Of a DNA stretch of 64,000 nucleotides, positions 39,105 through 46,593 are shown piece by piece. The stretch is from Klebsiella pneumoniae (lineage in GTDB: Bacteria > Myxococcota_A > UBA796 > GCA-2862545), in contig CAMASI010000008.1 of NCBI GenBank assembly GCA_945861065.1, positions 18,339 to 82,338 of the forward strand. The letters run 5' to 3'. A program made the position numbers and the translations under genes. How positions within the stretch are numbered: position 1 is the first letter of the stretch; the number at the start of each line of letters is the position of its first letter. The notes beneath the pieces are model-generated. The model was given only the letters and a program-made list of their open reading frames with translations. It was not told where the DNA came from and did no database searches.

Positions 39105-39904
39105 TTCGCACGGTAGCCGCTGCGTTTGCGCTTGCGATCGTCCTTCCGCTGTTGGTGTGGGGAGGCGTTGCGGGTACGGCCGCGCTGGTCGCGGTGGCGT
39201 CGGCGATTTGTATTCACGAATTTGTCGGGATGGCGCTGCCGTCTTGGCGCGGCTGGGGCCACATTGCCGTGGGATTGCCGTGGCTCTGCATTGCGGTCGC
39301 GGGGTGGACGGTCGGGGCAATCGGCGCATTGGTGACGGCATCGATTGCCTTCGTCGTGCTGTTTGGCTCGATCGCGCTTCGTCCGGGAGCAGATCTGCCG
39401 GTGGCGGTAGAGCGCCTCGCTCGCGTGACCCTTGGACTTGCGTGGATCGGTCAACTTGGTTGGGTGATTCCGATCCGGAATGAAGCGTCGGGAGGGGCCT
39501 GGCTTGCGCTTGCGCTGGTGGTGCCGTGGTGTGGCGACACGGGCGGGTACATTGCCGGCCGTTGGTTGGGTCGAACGCCCATGCATCCCGCGGTCAGCCC
39601 GAAAAAAACGATGGAAGGCGCTGCCGGATCGATCATGTCTGCCGCGGTCGGGGCCGAAGTCGTGCGTTGGTTGTGGCTCTCTGAACTCCCGCTTGGGTCT
39701 GGGGTTCTTCTGGGGGCCATGCTCGCTGCTGTGGCCATTGTTGGAGACCTGGCGGAGTCGATGCTCAAGCGAGCGTGGGGCGTGAAAGACACAGGCGCGA
39801 TCTTGCCAGGGCACGGAGGTCTGCTTGATCGCATCGATTCCGTGCTCTTCGTGGCACCATGGGTGTACTTGGTGTGTACAATCGCTGGGGAAAAGCACGG
39901 ATGA
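39098..39904 (+). CDS. cdsA: phosphatidate cytidylyltransferase
   Basis: The 268-residue multi-helix membrane enzyme makes CDP-diacylglycerol. The C-terminal signature SMLKRAWGVKDTGAILPGHG followed by GLLDRIDS and a central PWCGDTGGYIAGRWLGRTP establish it. GTG 39098 lies in the last codons of uppS. No nearer start is likely because the first helix begins at once (IRTVAAAFALAIVLPLLVW). Confidence 0.94.
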   Translation: MLIRTVAAAFALAIVLPLLVWGGVAGTAALVAVASAICIHEFVGMALPSWRGWGHIAVGLPWLCIAVAGWTVGAIGALVTASIAFVVLFGSIALRPGADLPVAVERLARVTLGLAWIGQLGWVIPIRNEASGGAWLALALVVPWCGDTGGYIAGRWLGRTPMHPAVSPKKTMEGAAGSIMSAAVGAEVVRWLWLSELPLGSGVLLGAMLAAVAIVGDLAESMLKRAWGVKDTGAILPGHGGLLDRIDSVLFVAPWVYLVCTIAGEKHG

Positions 39905-41541
39905 TCGTCGTCGCCGGTCTCGTCATGTTGGGTCTGCTCGTCGTGATCCACGAAGGCGGGCACATGATCGCAGCCAAGCTGTTGGGAATCGGCGTGCCCG
40001 TGTTCTCCGTGGGCATGGGCCCGCGAATCGCTGGAATTCGACTGTGGGGCACAGACTTTCGCCTCTCTGCCATTCCTGTTGGCGGGTACGTTCGAATGAC
40101 CGGCGCGGATCCGTTTGGAGACGCTGAGGAGAGTGGTGAGGTGTTCGAGCGCCAGAATTTCATGGCGCGCCCGGTTTGGCAGCGACTCATTGTCATGGCG
40201 GCCGGCCCTGGTGCAAACCTGTTGCTCCCCATCGTGTTGTTTTCTGCCGTGCTGATGGGCGGCGAGCCGCAGCCAGACGCGTCGGTCGGCTTTGTGACAG
40301 CCGAATCGCCGGCCTTCGTCGCGGGGGTGCGTGAAGGAGACATGGTCCGTCGTATTGGCGGGAACGCCGTTCTCTCCTGGGGCGACGTGATCGACGAATT
40401 GCTGGCGCGACCCGGCCAAACAACGAAAATTGATTTGGAACGAGACGGCGTCGCGATGGACGTCACGGTCCCAGGGTCCGCGATCGTTACGGTGGACGGA
40501 TTGCTCGACGGCGACGCGCTGGGGATAGCAAGCGAGCGCCTTTCTTCGTCGATCGGGGTCGATGATCCCTCGAGCCCTGCGTTCAGGTCTGGGCTTCGGA
40601 CGGCCGATCGGGTGGTTTCTGTGGACGGGGTCGAGGTCCGTGACTGGCGAGGCCTGATTCGCGCCATCGGCCCAGGTGCGCACGCTGTTGTCGTGGACCG
40701 TGTCGCCGGCGCGGCGATCGAGCGCATCGAGGTCAAGTTGCTGGCGGACGCTTGGGCTTCGGCACGCCCCGACCCGTGGGCAAACGGTTGGGGAATCGTC
40801 CCGTTGCAGATGTTTGTCCGGCACGTCGTTCCCGAGGGCGCCGCGGTGGCTGCGGGGATCCTGCCGAATGATCGCCTGTGGTCGGTGGACGGGTCAATAT
40901 TGCCAGATTGGAGAGGATTGACGCAGCGAATCATGGCGACCGTAGACGAACAGGCCGAGGCTGGGGCGCCAAGACCCGTGCGTGTCGAAGTCGTTCGCGA
41001 AGGTGCCATTGTTGGCGTTCAACTGGTGCCGACGTTGGTTCGGGAATTGGTACGTGTCGAAGCCAGGTATCGACCGATGATTGGGGTTCAGCGGTGGGAT
41101 GGCGCGTTCGTGACGGCTCCGGAAGTGCGCCGCTACTACGGTCCATGGGAGGCGGTGGTCCGCTCTGTGCAGACCAGTCGGAGGGTGCTGAGCGATACGC
41201 TTCAACTGTTCGGCAACCTGTCGATCGGCAACGTCAAGGTCGACGAGGGCCTGGGAGGACCGGTCGAAATCTTCCGGCATGCAGCCGCCAGCGCGGAGGA
41301 AGGGATCTTTGCGTTTGCGCGGATGATGGGCATGATCAGCTTCAGCCTTGGGATTGTGAATCTGCTCCCGGTGCCGGTGCTGGACGGCGGACACATCCTG
41401 TTCTACACGTTGGAAGCGATTCGAGGTCGGCCGCTGTCGTTGGTCGTCCGAGAGCGATTGCAGATGGCGGGCGTGCTCGCGCTGGTTGCGTTGATGCTCT
41501 ACGTGACGTGGGGCGAGGTGCTTGACGTCGTGTTCGGGTGA
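39901..41541 (+). CDS. rseP: site-2 metalloprotease RseP with three apparent PDZ domains
   Basis: The 546-residue inner-membrane zinc protease has the active-site motif HEGGH (residues 17-21) and the second metal motif region in VNLLPVPVLDGGHILFYTLE (from about 486). PDZ domains begin near residues 128 (VGFVTAESPAFVAGVREGD), 221 (SSPAFRSGLRTADRVVSVDG) and 307 (VPEGAAVAAGILPNDRLWSV). Two is usual, and the extra one accounts for the length above E. coli RseP (450). It clips anti-sigma factors and signal peptides. ATG overlaps the cdsA stop. Confidence 0.93.
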   Translation: MIVVAGLVMLGLLVVIHEGGHMIAAKLLGIGVPVFSVGMGPRIAGIRLWGTDFRLSAIPVGGYVRMTGADPFGDAEESGEVFERQNFMARPVWQRLIVMAAGPGANLLLPIVLFSAVLMGGEPQPDASVGFVTAESPAFVAGVREGDMVRRIGGNAVLSWGDVIDELLARPGQTTKIDLERDGVAMDVTVPGSAIVTVDGLLDGDALGIASERLSSSIGVDDPSSPAFRSGLRTADRVVSVDGVEVRDWRGLIRAIGPGAHAVVVDRVAGAAIERIEVKLLADAWASARPDPWANGWGIVPLQMFVRHVVPEGAAVAAGILPNDRLWSVDGSILPDWRGLTQRIMATVDEQAEAGAPRPVRVEVVREGAIVGVQLVPTLVRELVRVEARYRPMIGVQRWDGAFVTAPEVRRYYGPWEAVVRSVQTSRRVLSDTLQLFGNLSIGNVKVDEGLGGPVEIFRHAAASAEEGIFAFARMMGMISFSLGIVNLLPVPVLDGGHILFYTLEAIRGRPLSLVVRERLQMAGVLALVALMLYVTWGEVLDVVFG

Positions 41542-42185
41542 TCGTGCTTGCGGTGGACACAACGGCGCCGGTCATCGGCGTCGCGGCGAGCGATGGGTTG
41601 CGCACGTTTAGCCGCGTGGGGCGCGTAGAAAGAGGAGCCGAGGCTGTTCTCGTCGAATGGTCCTGTGAGGCTCTGGCGGCTCTGGGCGCGTCGTTGCGTG
41701 ACGTAGCTGGGGTTGGCGTCGCGATGGGGCCCGGCACGTTTACGGGAACGCGCGTGGGGCTCGCACACGGCCTGGGGATTGGCATCGCGAATGGGGCGCA
41801 GATGTGGCCTGGGGATGGCCTTGCGTGCCGTGCGCGCGCCGTCGGTGGGACCATGTCGGTGCTGACGCTGCTGGATGCCCGCCGGGGTCGGGCGTATGCG
41901 TCAGCTTTCTCGCCGGACGGGACTTGCACCCATGCTGCGGCCGATGCGCCGCTGAGCGATGCGCTCGGGTGGATGGTTGCCCCCTTCGTGGCAACCGGCG
42001 AAGGTGCCTTGTTGTGGAAAGACGATGTCGAGCGCGCCGGCGGGTGTGTGGCGCAGAATGCAGACGACCCAGCTGTCCACGTGCTTGTCGCGGACTCCTT
42101 TGCGACGATCAGCGCTGGCCAGGGCGTTCCTGTGAGTCGAATGACCCCGCGTTACCTCCGCGCCCCAGGTGTGGAGGCGCGTTGA
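41538..42185 (+). CDS. tsaB: TsaB, partner of TsaD in t6A synthesis
   Basis: The 215-residue protein has the ASKHA start IVLAVDTTAPVIGVAASD and VGVAMGPGTFTGTRVGLAHG, typical of TsaB/YeaZ. It lacks the TsaD metal ligands, as expected for the scaffold subunit. The C-terminal half (PRYLRAPGVEAR at the end) also fits. GTG start overlaps the rseP stop. Confidence 0.95.
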   Translation: MIVLAVDTTAPVIGVAASDGLRTFSRVGRVERGAEAVLVEWSCEALAALGASLRDVAGVGVAMGPGTFTGTRVGLAHGLGIGIANGAQMWPGDGLACRARAVGGTMSVLTLLDARRGRAYASAFSPDGTCTHAAADAPLSDALGWMVAPFVATGEGALLWKDDVERAGGCVAQNADDPAVHVLVADSFATISAGQGVPVSRMTPRYLRAPGVEAR

Positions 42186-43189
42186 CGGTAGCGGGAAGTG
42201 GAAGCCTGTCGGTGGCGGTCCTTGGCGCTACCGGGTTGCTCGGCGCCGAAATCGTGCGTGTGTTGGACGCGGCGCCATGGCGGCCTGCCCGACTCGTACC
42301 GCTAAGCAGCGGCCGGTCGTCTACAACACATGTGGACTGGGGTGAGGACCGGGTTGTGGTGGACGATTTGTCCGATCAGGCGCTCGGGGAAGTCGACTTG
42401 GTCATTCTGGCCGCTCCGAGCGCGGTGTCGCTGGAGGCGGGCCGCGATGCGCTCAAACAGGGTGTGTCGGTCGTGGATTGTTCCGGTGCGCTCGCGGCGG
42501 AGTTGCCGGTCTTGGTGCCATGGATCACCCCGGAGCTGCTGCCTCGTTTGGAACGCGGCGCGGTGATTCCAGCGGCGCCTGCGCTGCTTGTGGCGAGTAT
42601 TGTGGCACCACTTCGCCGTTTGGGCGTCGATGCGCCGGTGTCGGCGACAGTCATGTTGCCTGCGTCGACCGCGGGTCGAGCAGGACTCGATGAACTGTCC
42701 AAGCAGGTGGTGGGCCTGCTCAACGGCAGCGCCCCGCCGCGCAAAGTATTCGAGGGTGGCCTCGCTTTTGATCTTGTTCCGACGGTTGGAACGGTCACGC
42801 CGGGTGGGTGGACGACGCGCGAGAGAGACGTTGCGGCCCTCGTCCTTCGGCTGACGGGTGGGGAGGCCGCCATCGACGTCACCCTGGTCCAGGTGCCGGT
42901 CTTCAGCGGTATGGCAGCGGCCATCCATTTGATGGCGCGCGTGCCCGTGGACAAGGTCCGGGAGGCGTTGGAGGCTTCGGGCTTGGTGTTGTCAGAGACG
43001 CGCTCAGGGCCTCGGCCTCGACGAATGGATGGGTTGGCATTTCCGCACGTGGGGCGGGTCCGCGCCGGCGCTGACGGCTCGGTGCATCTTTGGGTTGCGA
43101 TGGACAACCTTCGTTGCGTCGCGACCGCAGCCGTACACGTCGCCGGTGCACTTTTGGCCCGGTCGGGCGCCCTACAAGCCCCGTCCTGA
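42182..43189 (+). CDS. aspartate-semialdehyde dehydrogenase homologue lacking catalytic residues (USG-1-like)
   Basis: The 335-residue protein has the ASADH fold: VAVLGATGLLGAEIVRVL at the NADP loop, LVILAAPSAVSLEAG, VSVVDCSGALAAELPVLVPW and PTVGTVTPGGWTTRER. The catalytic Cys normally in an NPNCST-like segment is replaced (VIPAAPALLVAS, about residues 127-138), and the catalytic His of GHS is GMA here (VPVFSGMAAAIHL). It therefore cannot be a normal Asd and resembles the USG-1 family. It starts at TTG 42182 (TTGA overlap) or GTG 42212. Confidence 0.72.
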   Translation: MTVAGSGSLSVAVLGATGLLGAEIVRVLDAAPWRPARLVPLSSGRSSTTHVDWGEDRVVVDDLSDQALGEVDLVILAAPSAVSLEAGRDALKQGVSVVDCSGALAAELPVLVPWITPELLPRLERGAVIPAAPALLVASIVAPLRRLGVDAPVSATVMLPASTAGRAGLDELSKQVVGLLNGSAPPRKVFEGGLAFDLVPTVGTVTPGGWTTRERDVAALVLRLTGGEAAIDVTLVQVPVFSGMAAAIHLMARVPVDKVREALEASGLVLSETRSGPRPRRMDGLAFPHVGRVRAGADGSVHLWVAMDNLRCVATAAVHVAGALLARSGALQAPS

Positions 43190-43308
43190 CAGGTTGTCGC
43201 TGGTCCGTCGGCGGTTGTGAGTCCGTTGACAACGTGTCCGATCCGCGGCGGCTGACCCTGCTGATTGGGGGCCGGGCAACGCGGCACGCTTCCTGCTAGT
43301 GTTCGCGC

Positions 43309-45789
43309 ATGTGGCTCTCGATCCTGATTCCCTCGGCGTTTGCCCTGCCGCCGGACCGGCAAACAGGCAAGGTGGACGTTGGGTCCAACGACGTAGAGCG
43401 GTTTGCGGTGTCGTCGGACGGCCGTTGGGTCGGGGGGCGTGACAAAGGGACGAAGGACCTCTTTGTGATCGACGTCGAAGACTGGTCGGTGCTTTCGGCG
43501 GCGCCCTGCGATGTGAGCGGTGTGGCCTTTGCCCCTGACGGCGTGGACGTCGACGTTTGGGTTGCGTGCGAGGACGGTTTTCTGCTGTTGTTCGGCGTGG
43601 ATGACGGCGCCTTGGTTGCGCAGGAAGACAATGAGGGCGCGGCAATCTCGATTGACGTCGGCGAGGGTACGGGACTCGTCGGCGTGTGGCTGTACGACAA
43701 CAGCACCGCCTCTACGCTGGTGCTCGCCAGTTGGGATTTGGCCGACACGTCCCCCGTAGGGATTTACACGCTCGATTCTGGTGGTGCCAAAGCGGGCAGT
43801 CTACCGGTCAAGACGTCGGACACGGCGTCGGCCAAGTTCCAGGAAGGTGTTGTCGCCGGCTCGTATTTGATCATCGCACATGGCGGAGAAGACATGTCGG
43901 CGGTGAGCTTGCCGGCGGGTGCGGCGATCGCTTTTCCGATTTCCGCGATTCAGCCGGTAGACATCGCTGCGGGTGGCGCGGGTTTCGCCTACGGGGTGGA
44001 TGATTCAGGCGTGCTCGGACGCTATTCCGCCTACGACGGCGATTTTCCAACACTTTTGACGGGTTTGCCCAGCCCGCAGGCCGTGGCGGCCAACATCTCC
44101 GACGACGGAACGGACGACTGGTTGGTCGTGTATGGCGACGACGTTCAGATCTTTAGTTTCAACCAATATATCCTCGATACCGAGCCGCTCCACGTTTTCC
44201 CGATCGAGGACGAAGACGGCAGCACTGTGCAAGACGCAGTCGTCTCCGATGGGTACGTGTTTGGCGGGGGCGAGGGCGGCAAGGTCAAAGTCGCCAGCGC
44301 GCGCCCGTGGGTGTACCCGGACCTGTTGTTCCTGGCCTCGGTGGGCACGCCCGGTGGAACCGACGGCGAACATGTGCCGGGCGATGAGATCACGCTGACC
44401 TTTCAAGTCGACACCGACGCCACCTGCGACGTGCATCTGGGCGGAAGCCGCGTGGGCGATGGGGTGGTGCTCGACGGTGGAATCGAAGCGCTGACAGACA
44501 TCCCGGTGGCGTCCAACATCACGGTCGACGAGACGTGGGACGAAGGCGACAACTTCGTTTACATCGTTTGTGTCGACGACACGACGCTGCTGACTGGCCA
44601 CGCGGCCGCGCACGTGGATGTGGATGCGCCGCCACAGCCTCCCGTGCTGACGGGCGCAAACTTGTTGTTTGCCGACGAAGCGCTTGAGCTGACCTTTGAG
44701 GGCATCGACGACGAGGACCTCGACCACTACACCGTCTACGTGTCCGATTCGTCGTTTACAGCGAGCGACTGGGCGACGGGCGGTCCTGCATTCACAGAAG
44801 GTACGTTTTCGGCGCCACTCGATGTGAACGCGGCTGCCGAGGAATCGATAGACTTGCGGCTCGAACCGTTGACTAACTACAAAGAATATTGGGTGGCCGT
44901 CCGCGCTTTTGACGCGGGAGGCAAGGAAGGTCCGATGAGTGTTGTGTTGTCAGAGACGCCTCGCCCTACGTTCACCGCGGCCCAGCTCGCCGGCGAACGC
45001 GGCGGCACGCCTTGGTGCGGAACGACGGGTGCGCTTGCGACTCCCTGGTGGCTTGTTGGTGGCTTCTTGGCGATGGTCCGTCGACGAGGTCGCTCTGGGG
45101 TCGTCGGGGCTGCCCTTGCGGTCGCCCTGGTGCCAGGGGTGGCATTCGCTGGCGAAAATGGCGACATGGAGCGCCGATCGCATGGAAATTTCGAGGCCCG
45201 ATATGGCACTGTTGGCTTCGCGACCGTCGACGGGAAAAAGAACCCGATCGACAAGGTCTACACCGAAGCGCCCGATGACATCCTGTGGATCGAAGCGGGG
45301 CCGCAGCTGTTCCACATCGTAGAAATCGACTTCGGTACGGGATTTCTGCAGAGCCTCGCCAAGACCATAGACGGTTCGGGTTCGCAGTCGGCGGACAAGA
45401 CGATGTTGACTTGGTGGCCGTTCATGGTGGACGGCACGCTAAGGCTTGAGATCGTGGACGAGCAATGGGTCGTTCCGTTTGCGCGCGGCGGATTTGACTA
45501 CATCATTTACAGCGAGAGTTCCGACAACGGCTCGGGCGGAAAGGACAAACTCCATGGTGCCAAGATCGGCAACCACTATGGGTTTGGAACCAACTTGTTG
45601 CTCGATCCGCTGGCCCGAGCGCGGGCGAGTAAACTCGAAGCCCAGACTGGAATCAACGACACGTACTTGACGTTTGAATGGCGGCGTCAGAATGTGGACC
45701 ATCGCAAACTTCCGTGGGGGTCACCTGTCAAACAGGGTTTTGACTTCTCCGGGGATCAGTTCACGGTTGGCCTCAAGCTCGACTACTGA
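43309..45789 (+). CDS. fusion: surface protein with internal MYXO-CTERM-like segment plus outer-membrane barrel
   Basis: The 826-residue ORF begins with a short signal (MWLSILIPSAFA). Residues about 20-350 look like a WD/beta-propeller-type exported domain, and 350-560 like Ig/FN3 domains. At residue about 569 comes WCGTTG, a hydrophobic stretch ending VGGFLAMV and RRRGR, the layout of a MYXO-CTERM tag. This is followed at once by a second signal-like stretch (GAALAVALVPGVAFAG, about 599-615) and about 210 residues resembling the MXAN_2562-type outer-membrane barrel family (EARYGTVGFATVDGKKNPID; ILWIEAGPQLFHIVEIDFGT). The reading frame is continuous, so one polyprotein-like product may be cut to two. 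Confidence 0.68.
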   Translation: MWLSILIPSAFALPPDRQTGKVDVGSNDVERFAVSSDGRWVGGRDKGTKDLFVIDVEDWSVLSAAPCDVSGVAFAPDGVDVDVWVACEDGFLLLFGVDDGALVAQEDNEGAAISIDVGEGTGLVGVWLYDNSTASTLVLASWDLADTSPVGIYTLDSGGAKAGSLPVKTSDTASAKFQEGVVAGSYLIIAHGGEDMSAVSLPAGAAIAFPISAIQPVDIAAGGAGFAYGVDDSGVLGRYSAYDGDFPTLLTGLPSPQAVAANISDDGTDDWLVVYGDDVQIFSFNQYILDTEPLHVFPIEDEDGSTVQDAVVSDGYVFGGGEGGKVKVASARPWVYPDLLFLASVGTPGGTDGEHVPGDEITLTFQVDTDATCDVHLGGSRVGDGVVLDGGIEALTDIPVASNITVDETWDEGDNFVYIVCVDDTTLLTGHAAAHVDVDAPPQPPVLTGANLLFADEALELTFEGIDDEDLDHYTVYVSDSSFTASDWATGGPAFTEGTFSAPLDVNAAAEESIDLRLEPLTNYKEYWVAVRAFDAGGKEGPMSVVLSETPRPTFTAAQLAGERGGTPWCGTTGALATPWWLVGGFLAMVRRRGRSGVVGAALAVALVPGVAFAGENGDMERRSHGNFEARYGTVGFATVDGKKNPIDKVYTEAPDDILWIEAGPQLFHIVEIDFGTGFLQSLAKTIDGSGSQSADKTMLTWWPFMVDGTLRLEIVDEQWVVPFARGGFDYIIYSESSDNGSGGKDKLHGAKIGNHYGFGTNLLLDPLARARASKLEAQTGINDTYLTFEWRRQNVDHRKLPWGSPVKQGFDFSGDQFTVGLKLDY

Positions 45790-45801
45790 GAGCGGACGCC
45801 G

Positions 45802-46593
45802 ATGTCGCGATGGCGGCTCGATCTCGAGTACGACGGCACCCTGTTCGCGGGCTGGCAGGCCCAGGGCAGTTTGCGTACGATTCAGGCAGCGGTCGAAGCT
45901 GCTGCGACGCGGATCTTCAATGAACCTGTTCGGGTCAGTGCCGCAGGGCGTACGGACACGGGTGTGCACGCGGAACACCAGGTCGCCTCGTTCCTGGCCG
46001 ACACAGTGCGTACGCGGAGGGCGGTTGTTCTCGGGATGAACGCTGTGCTCCCGTCGGACGTGTCAGTGGTGGACGCGTCGCAGGTTCCAGACGCATTTGA
46101 CCCTCGCCGGAGCCTGCATGGCAAGCGGTATCGGTATCGGTGGCTGACCCGGCTTGGGGCCAGCCCGCTGCGACGTGACCGCGCGTGGCACGGGAGTCCA
46201 CCGCTCAACAGCGACGCGATGGCAGAGGCGATCACGGCAGTTCGAGGCCAGCATGATTTTTCGTCGTTTCGTGCTGCCGGGTGCCAGGCGGCGACGGCTG
46301 TTCGAACCGTGCAAGGCGCCCGCGTGCTCGTTGTCGGGGACGAAATTCAGCTCGTGATGGAAGGAACAGGGTTCCTCAGAAACATGATTCGCATCGTTGC
46401 CGGCTCGCTCACGGAGATTGGCCGCGGCGCAAAGCCTACAGATTGGCTCGCTACCTTGTTGCACACGCGCGATCGTGGCCAAGCCGGACCCACAGCGCCA
46501 CCGCATGGGCTCACCTTAGAGAGGATCTGGTACGCAGGAGAGCCCGACGCGCCCCGGTGGGCGGGATTTCGGGAAGTTTCAAGCGAAGAATGA
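45802..46593 (+). CDS. truA: tRNA pseudouridine synthase A
   Basis: The 263-residue enzyme makes pseudouridine at positions 38-40 of tRNA anticodon stems. It has LEYDGTLFAGWQAQ, the catalytic Asp in SAAGRTDTGVHAEHQVASF, GKRYRYRW and GTGFLRNMIRIVAGSLTEIG. ATG start just after the preceding stop. Confidence 0.97.
   Translation: MSRWRLDLEYDGTLFAGWQAQGSLRTIQAAVEAAATRIFNEPVRVSAAGRTDTGVHAEHQVASFLADTVRTRRAVVLGMNAVLPSDVSVVDASQVPDAFDPRRSLHGKRYRYRWLTRLGASPLRRDRAWHGSPPLNSDAMAEAITAVRGQHDFSSFRAAGCQAATAVRTVQGARVLVVGDEIQLVMEGTGFLRNMIRIVAGSLTEIGRGAKPTDWLATLLHTRDRGQAGPTAPPHGLTLERIWYAGEPDAPRWAGFREVSSEE

Follow-up and report, generated by a model that had tools for sequence, protein, structure and literature searches.

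A Cys-hydrophobic-Arg sorting tag and an adjoining signal peptide inside one open reading frame: a candidate envelope polyprotein of Myxococcota

In the window analysed here, a stretch of 64,000 nucleotides (nt) from contig CAMASI010000008.1 of assembly GCA_945861065.1, a single open reading frame (ORF) at 43309-45789 of the plus strand joins a putative surface protein to an outer-membrane barrel. Its 826 codons plus stop form one unbroken frame, which begins just three codons upstream of the ATG (829 amino acids in all). In the middle of the ORF, between the two halves, lies a MYXO-CTERM-like sorting tag immediately followed by a signal peptide. We propose, with a probability of roughly two in three, that the product is a polyprotein which is cleaved at both of these sites, yielding the pair of proteins for which relatives have two genes. 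The fusion itself is real and old, as the same architecture was found in 55 of the 60 barrel-bearing genomes of the order of uncultured bacteria that carries it, an order that likely belongs to the phylum Myxococcota.

The fused frame and the residues kept at its join

Residues 562-614 of the fused ORF read GERGGTPWC(570)GTTGALATPWWLVGGFLAMVRRR(591-593)GRSGVVGAALAVALVPGVAFA(612-614), followed by GEN. The first part of this join, the internal MYXO-CTERM-like tag (residues 562-593, 44992-45087, plus strand), contains the sequence elements of such a tag, namely Cys570 (45016-45018), a hydrophobic stretch at 571-589 and Arg591-593, and departs from MYXO-CTERM in its position, which is not C-terminal, a signal peptide and 212 residues coming after it. 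Signal peptides consist of a cytoplasmic basic n-region, a hydrophobic core and a periplasmic Ala-x-Ala. Residues 594-614 (45088-45150, plus strand) are predicted to be such a peptide, for which the tag would supply the n-region in the form of its Arg cluster, with a predicted signal peptidase I site at 614/615, between AFA and GEN. An earlier note on this DNA had described a single uninterrupted 826-codon frame with a mid-ORF MYXO-CTERM-like segment, a signal-peptide-like stretch and an MXAN_2562-type barrel. This description was confirmed, the tag scoring 13.3 bits with TIGR03901 (curated cut-off 20) and the barrel matching as kin to its family.

The main evidence at the join is the conservation of its residues, and the tag and signal-peptide scores reported below serve as support. 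In an alignment of 54 fused ORFs, Cys570 was found in each of the 53 rows extending over it, and the other key residues in most rows (Arg592, 53 of 54; Ala614, 52 of 54; Ala612, 47 of 53). The Cys of relative L030 lies outside its row and is visible in the translation of the locus; L061, cut by a contig end, was counted as fused and left out of the alignment. The remainder of the stretch from the last sandwich domain to the barrel is poorly conserved, and 40 of the other 53 aligned ORFs share just 31-42% identity with that of the window over the C-terminal 330 amino acids. Among 53 rows the distance from Cys to Arg is 20-28 residues and that from Arg to Ala 16-32, both stretches being hydrophobic; from the Cys to the Ala at -1, acidic residues are absent in 30 of the 53 rows and never exceed three.

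The tag of the window is among the weaker ones, and therefore the case rests on the relatives. TIGR03901 gave a match at expectation values (E) of up to 10 in 16 of the 54 fused members; in the fused relative L129 the internal match reached 24.9 bits, above the cut-off of 20. We also built a hidden Markov model (HMM) exclusively from terminal tags, 28 from the genome of the window and 26 from split genes. With this tag HMM, whose training set thus includes kin of the joins under test, 62 of 70 fused joins scored above the 99% point of shuffled sequences; when reversed joins were used instead, 50 of 70 were above the 95% point (9.9) and 41 of 70 above the maximum. A signal-peptide matrix trained on 46 signal peptides of split barrels placed 64 of 81 fused joins above the 95% and 44 of 81 above the 99% point of shuffles, with the window at 14.7 versus a 99% point of 14.2. 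The best site followed a basic pair in 76 of 81 joins, and 58 of the 81 also had a small-x-Ala motif at the expected distance. The automatically picked cleavage sites often fell two residues early, so that the matrix supports the region and not the exact site.

An AlphaFold2 model built with 40 homologues (mean pLDDT 89.0) showed a propeller, two beta-sandwiches, a low-confidence join at about residues 570-617 with two short helices, and the barrel. The predicted beta-propeller spans residues about 18-330 (43360-44298, plus strand; pLDDT mostly about 90). A Foldseek search found it to resemble WD40 propellers, for example 5nuv (TMt 0.74), at 7-15% identity among the 50 matches listed; these matches identified the fold of the propeller half and named no function for it. 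The two predicted beta-sandwich domains, which are fibronectin-III-like (residues about 337-550, 44317-44958, plus strand), are in keeping with fn3 matches in some relatives. The predicted mature barrel, residues 615-826 (45151-45786, plus strand), has eight long strands at 626-825 in the model. At the other end of the protein, residues 1-12 (MWLSILIPSAFA; 43309-43344, plus strand; a helix at 2-12 in the model) would form the N-terminal signal peptide. This hydrophobic stretch of 12 residues, which ends in AFA and contains neither Lys nor Arg, is unusually short for a signal peptide; short uncharged hydrophobic N-termini were also present in most of the homologues listed. Very short N-terminal signal peptides of about 10-15 residues, devoid of Lys and Arg, seem in fact to be common in the lineage (MWLSILIPSAFA, MLLLLVQLSAFA and MWTLLFATAFA are examples), as seen at 43309-43344, in L075, L076, L093, L098 and L099, and in most of the homologues P0003-P0039.

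Profile searches linked both halves to named families. MXAN_2562_fam (NF040596), a family of outer-membrane barrels, matched with 79.8 bits over the whole ORF and 83.6 bits over the barrel alone (E 1.4e-23; cut-off 100), and MXAN_2561_fam (NF045522), whose members are described as anchored by MYXO-CTERM, matched the middle of the ORF with 28.8 bits (E 8e-7; cut-off 150). The latter match includes the second beta-sandwich domain, and residue 592, within the Arg cluster of the tag, corresponds to the end of the profile (position 303 of 304). By these matches the fused ORF is kin to the MXAN_2561 and MXAN_2562 families, not a cut-off member of either, and it appears as the one-gene counterpart of two families with adjoining Myxococcus xanthus locus numbers. 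The two families have the same two halves in the same order, the first profile ending at the tag; however, they are encoded by two genes, whereas the window has one ORF with matches below the cut-offs. The sole match in a Pfam scan of the fused ORF was a sub-threshold DUF389 across the join, family searches gave no OmpA domain match in it, and the NCBI family search did not report it for CFI-box-CTERM (NF041770), which has a cut-off of 40 bits.

One gene or two across the phylum

A search of 5.8 billion proteins, of which the best 7995 candidates were scored, returned 39 other homologues, all of them long (683-865 amino acids); 38 covered 94-100% of the query and one covered 78%. The barrel was present in 60 of the 63 genomes of the genus, family and order of the window, and all 60 loci were read. 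The earlier note had raised the question of whether relatives carry one gene or two, and both situations occur: 55 loci are fused in frame and five consist of two genes. These five belong to one genus of one family, and their tag and signal peptide are intact, forming the true termini of two separate genes. Outside the order, the six loci of the same class that were read were all split (eight genomes had a match, two of which were not fetched). In one fused relative, L030, the internal signal peptide is separated from the barrel by a repeat linker rich in Asp, Ser and Gly (GDDSAGDD...).

Across the phylum sample a MXAN_2562_fam match was present in 274 of 377 genomes. We read 144 loci (60 of the order, 6 of the class and 78 from outside the class) and assigned their states and upstream tags from the translations, which gave 70 MYXO-fused, 11 CFI-fused and 63 split loci; L002 (a copy of L001), L056 and L069 had been dropped before counting. 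Forty-two of the loci from outside the class, picked for spread of family and frame length or at hand before, comprised 13 MYXO-fused, 11 CFI-fused and 18 split; for the 40 loci picked for such spread, fused shares are not rates. The other 36, which completed the 50 best matches listed from outside the class, comprised 2 fused and 34 split; among those 50 best matches, 7 were fused and 43 split. With the exception of L146, every split locus (62 of 63) has an ORF that ends no more than 700 nt upstream of the barrel gene and whose tail is of the MYXO type or of the CFI type, the latter recognized by eye. The two genes can be closer still: among 29 split loci examined for overlap, 26 of them measurable and the other 34 split loci standing outside this count, the start codon overlapped the upstream stop as ATGA or GTGA (4 nt) in 15.

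In the CFI-fused relatives the same barrel follows another tag. CFI_box_CTERM scored 67.7-97.6 bits in the five tested, against a cut-off of 40, so that of the 11 CFI-fused loci five were confirmed by family search, three by motif and three by resemblance only. The upstream half of these relatives still matches MXAN_2561_fam, and judged by these profiles the CFI-fused loci encode the same partner protein with the other tag; the tag of the window is MYXO-CTERM-like instead. In L122, L126, L145, L153 and L068, CFI-box-CTERM (NF041770), a domain named for its C-terminal position, thus stands mid-protein before the same barrel.

The fused ORF is flanked by an asd-like gene upstream (42180-43189, start approximate, plus strand) and a truA-like gene downstream (45802-46593, plus strand), the latter beginning 12 nt past the stop of the fused ORF. 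These names were assigned by inspection of the sequences and not by a family search; with genes named in the same way, the ORF is set in a rseP-tsaB-asd-[pair]-truA neighbourhood at 39859-46593, an arrangement common to many relatives. In gammaproteobacteria, asd and truA flank fimV, and the asd/truA slot may therefore house different envelope proteins in different phyla. Homologues of the asd-like gene lie beside many fused and split forms, and those of the truA-like gene beside many fused and some split ones. At least one of the two neighbours was found at every other MYXO-fused locus except L152 (68 of 69), at 9 of the 11 CFI-fused and at 27 of the 63 split loci. A shared neighbour places the fused and split states in one locus there and makes paralogy of the two forms unlikely where it occurs (27 of 63 split loci). 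In the five split loci of the order the asd-like neighbour was seen and the truA-like one was not, the fetched stretches often ending short.

A maximum-likelihood tree of 108 barrels requires at least 11 changes between the fused and split states, and its starred branches alone require the split label to change four times. One starred group unites the five split loci of the order with 17 fused ones. A split clade nested in a fused order is most simply explained by fission; if neither tag nor signal peptide had worked in the fused ancestor, the split genus would have had to regain both.

Processing of the fused product and its alternatives

In the proposed mechanism, the N-terminal signal would route the first half through Sec until the hydrophobic stretch of the tag (571-589) halted the transfer, leaving Arg591-593 in the cytoplasm. 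The same Arg cluster would then act as the n-region of the signal peptide at 594-614 and restart transfer, so that the join would form a hairpin in the inner membrane with both of its ends, and hence both cut sites, on the periplasmic side. A myxosortase-type protease would cut just past Cys570, which by analogy with the published model would be lipid-modified, leaving residues 13-570 as a lipid-anchored protein that may be exported to the surface by type II secretion. Signal peptidase I would cut after Ala614, freeing residues 615-826 to insert as a barrel, and a hairpin peptide of about 44 residues would be left over. One ORF would in this way yield a fixed 1:1 pair of presumed partners. The published model for MYXO-CTERM proteins comprises Sec export, a hydrophobic anchor, cytoplasmic Arg residues, probable lipidation of the Cys and type II transport to the surface; MrtX is described as cutting on the distal side of the Cys, and dependence on the Cys and on MrtX was shown for TraA, lipidation being presented as speculative (PMC11980579).

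The genome of the window encodes machinery that could carry out these steps. A CPBP protease (L102:1414-2178) matched the myxosortase core Mrt_core (NF040914) with 113.1 bits against a cut-off of 100, signal peptidase I scored 162 against 47, and GspD scored 488.7 against 351.35.

The two readings left side by side by the earlier note, a polyprotein or a fusion with a dead tag, can now be told apart to a considerable extent. The polyprotein fits far better with the conserved Cys, Arg cluster and Ala-x-Ala and with the nested two-gene genus, even though we infer the cutting itself. A dead tag would correspond to a single cut, in which the barrel is released by signal peptidase I whereas a two-helix hairpin keeps the first half in the inner membrane. 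This possibility, which we regard as unlikely but worth keeping in mind, agrees with the signal-peptide end being as well conserved as the tag, with the low score of the tag of the window and with a protease that falls under the MrtX, MrtC and MrtP cut-offs; however, it leaves without a role Cys570, a residue not needed in a plain membrane anchor and yet found in all 53 rows, and in the split loci the corresponding segment forms a genuine C-terminus. Still less probable is that the product remains uncut as a two-domain envelope protein whose join is a plain membrane hairpin. The single frame unbroken throughout an order and the conserved hydrophobic stretches would suit such a protein, but the conserved Ala-x-Ala and Cys and the repeated splitting and fusing of the pair do not, and in the AlphaFold2 model the first barrel strand starts 11 residues past Ala614, a spacer too short to span the periplasm, so that an outer-membrane barrel could not remain tied to the inner membrane.

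About as improbable, if not slightly more so, is that the barrel is made separately from an in-frame translation start such as Met589 (45073). The window has an ATG three codons ahead of Arg592, and the two-gene relatives often overlap by 4 nt. Nonetheless, only 15 of 54 fused ORFs contain an ATG in the interval from the Cys to the h-region, at differing positions; nine of the 54 had no ATG, GTG or TTG there, and a word of at least four bases resembling a ribosome-binding site (RBS) preceded a candidate in just seven, the window not among them. On the counts of start codons and RBS-like words in these 54 ORFs we rejected internal initiation as a general route, and the fused product would be made anyway. 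An artefact of sequencing or assembly, through loss of a stop codon or a frameshift, which the earlier note had named as a way in which its reading could fail, might be suspected in a draft of 147 contigs; we give it next to no weight and rejected it, as the 39 other long homologues and 54 further genomes of the order, which bring the fused total to 55 of 60, independently show the same join.

Several observations weigh against the polyprotein reading. Both cuts are predictions from sequence, and the hydrophobic stretches and the Arg would persist in an uncut hairpin too, so that the Cys and the Ala-x-Ala are the only residues that favour cutting. Both halves of the ORF score under the NCBI family cut-offs, its tag falls short of that of TIGR03901, and the CPBP protease, despite its myxosortase core, is under the cut-offs of MrtX, MrtC and MrtP. 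With the tag HMM, 8 of the 70 fused joins miss the 99% shuffle point, and that of the window, with 3.8 bits (-1.4 when reversed), lies between the 95% (1.4) and 99% (4.3) points. This shuffle control was lenient, since 33 of 70 reversed joins, with scores of up to 12.2 bits, also exceeded the 99% point, and the best of them was not surpassed by 29 of 70 fused joins; the reversed joins pass because a hydrophobic-Arg-hydrophobic hairpin reads alike in both directions. In the signal-peptide test 37 of 81 joins miss the 99% point, and no more than 58 have the small-x-Ala at the distance expected. The sequences come mostly from metagenome assemblies, and the barrel tree was a quick search run without bootstraps, on which changes were counted without direction. 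Finally, neither neighbour was found at 36 of the 63 split loci, which may thus not belong to the same locus, among them all six class-level loci and most of those of families f14 and f31, in fetched stretches that were short and often ended before the neighbours. The reversed-join control and the neighbour count slightly lowered our confidence in the full mechanism, as well as in the wider interpretation given below.

Related proteins and meaning for the Myxococcota

To our knowledge, polyproteins of cellular bacteria are few. In the fbcH cytochrome b/c1 precursor of Bradyrhizobium and in viral polyproteins of the stop-transfer/signal type, a membrane segment is followed by an internal signal peptide that signal peptidase cuts; unlike the ORF of the window, these precursors contain neither a sorting tag nor an outer-membrane barrel.

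The closest published case is MXAN_5598 of M. xanthus, for which Guo, Haft and Wall (2025; PMC11980579) noted an internal MYXO-CTERM and proposed that the protein arose by gene fusion and that its N-terminal part is processed; the same paper cites sorting tags that work mid-protein. The novelty that the earlier note ascribed to an internal sorting tag that works is not supported, as that possibility was already in print. Like the fused ORF, MXAN_5598 has a surface protein, an internal MYXO-CTERM and an outer-membrane barrel in one ORF (PMC11980579). They differ in that MXAN_5598 has an adhesin region and an OmpA domain, whereas the window ORF has a propeller, lacks an OmpA domain match and is kin to MXAN_2561/MXAN_2562; moreover, MXAN_5598 is treated there as a single protein, whereas the present analysis follows one pair across a phylum. 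TraA and TraB of M. xanthus also combine a MYXO-CTERM protein with an outer-membrane barrel protein, and their ORFs overlap (PMC11980579). They are nonetheless separate genes, TraB has an OmpA domain, and we liken them to the fused ORF by architecture alone. The CFI-box-CTERM proteins (NF041770), with the same barrel fused behind them in the 11 sampled loci described above, are a further parallel.

Literature searches on this fusion, on internal sorting signals, on fbcH, on the CFI-box, on midcut-by-XrtH and on bacterial polyproteins gave no account of the fusion, as judged by titles and the openings of abstracts. As far as these searches show, what is new is the recurrent fusion and splitting of the MXAN_2561/2562 pair, fused throughout an order; the signal peptide that adjoins the tag directly and has the Arg cluster in common with it; the occurrence of the CFI-box in place of MYXO-CTERM at the same join; and the presence of three such ORFs in one genome.

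These other ORFs were recognized by inspecting all 47 distinct places of the genome at which TIGR03901 matched at E of up to 10 (48 rows, one tag being listed twice). Besides the ORF of the window, two of the places are ORFs in which an export signal comes immediately after the tag and another domain follows. L209 (G000:C117, 1807-5220, minus strand) is a frame of 1138 amino acids with a calcium-repeat-like adhesin region, a tag, a signal peptide and a region ending in an OmpA domain (PF00691, 68.1 bits); it resembles the published MXAN_5598 more than the window ORF does, and joins of its type occur in seven relatives (L212, L213, L215, L216, L218, L220 and L221). L210 (G000:C4, 1376-5176, plus strand), of 1267 amino acids, has a CotH-like part, a tag, a lipoprotein-type signal (STVAAC) and a MopE/fibrinogen-like part, and a relative of the same genus, L224, shares its type of join. 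The tags of L209 and L210 score 14.6 and 12.3 bits, below the TIGR03901 cut-off. In the same genome, a tagged peptidase-like ORF (L088, G000:C14:53581-53664) lacks a stop past its MYXO-CTERM and continues for 177 codons antisense to a convergent ORF.

Sorting tags have been described as C-terminal; here the same two proteins occur as separate, overlapping and fused genes in which the tag and the signal peptide are kept, and these states, found in many genomes next to the same neighbours, provide natural controls. If the cuts are real, an unprocessed first half could not leave the membrane and the barrel could not reach the outer membrane, so that each fused ORF would be a self-reporting myxosortase substrate. 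The site of the myxosortase cut and the modification that precedes it would then become directly testable, and an annotation of tags restricted to C-termini would overlook such proteins.

More broadly, with a confidence that is little better than even, we suggest that envelope polyproteins are a strategy in general use among Myxococcota, in which a tag and the next signal peptide would form one hairpin around a shared Arg cluster, two proteases acting on the periplasmic side would separate the products, and a surface protein and its outer-membrane partner would be delivered 1:1. Such an arrangement would have been repeatedly gained and undone for one pair and would have employed either of two tags; in this genome it would serve three unrelated pairs, one of them with a lipoprotein signal opening its second half.

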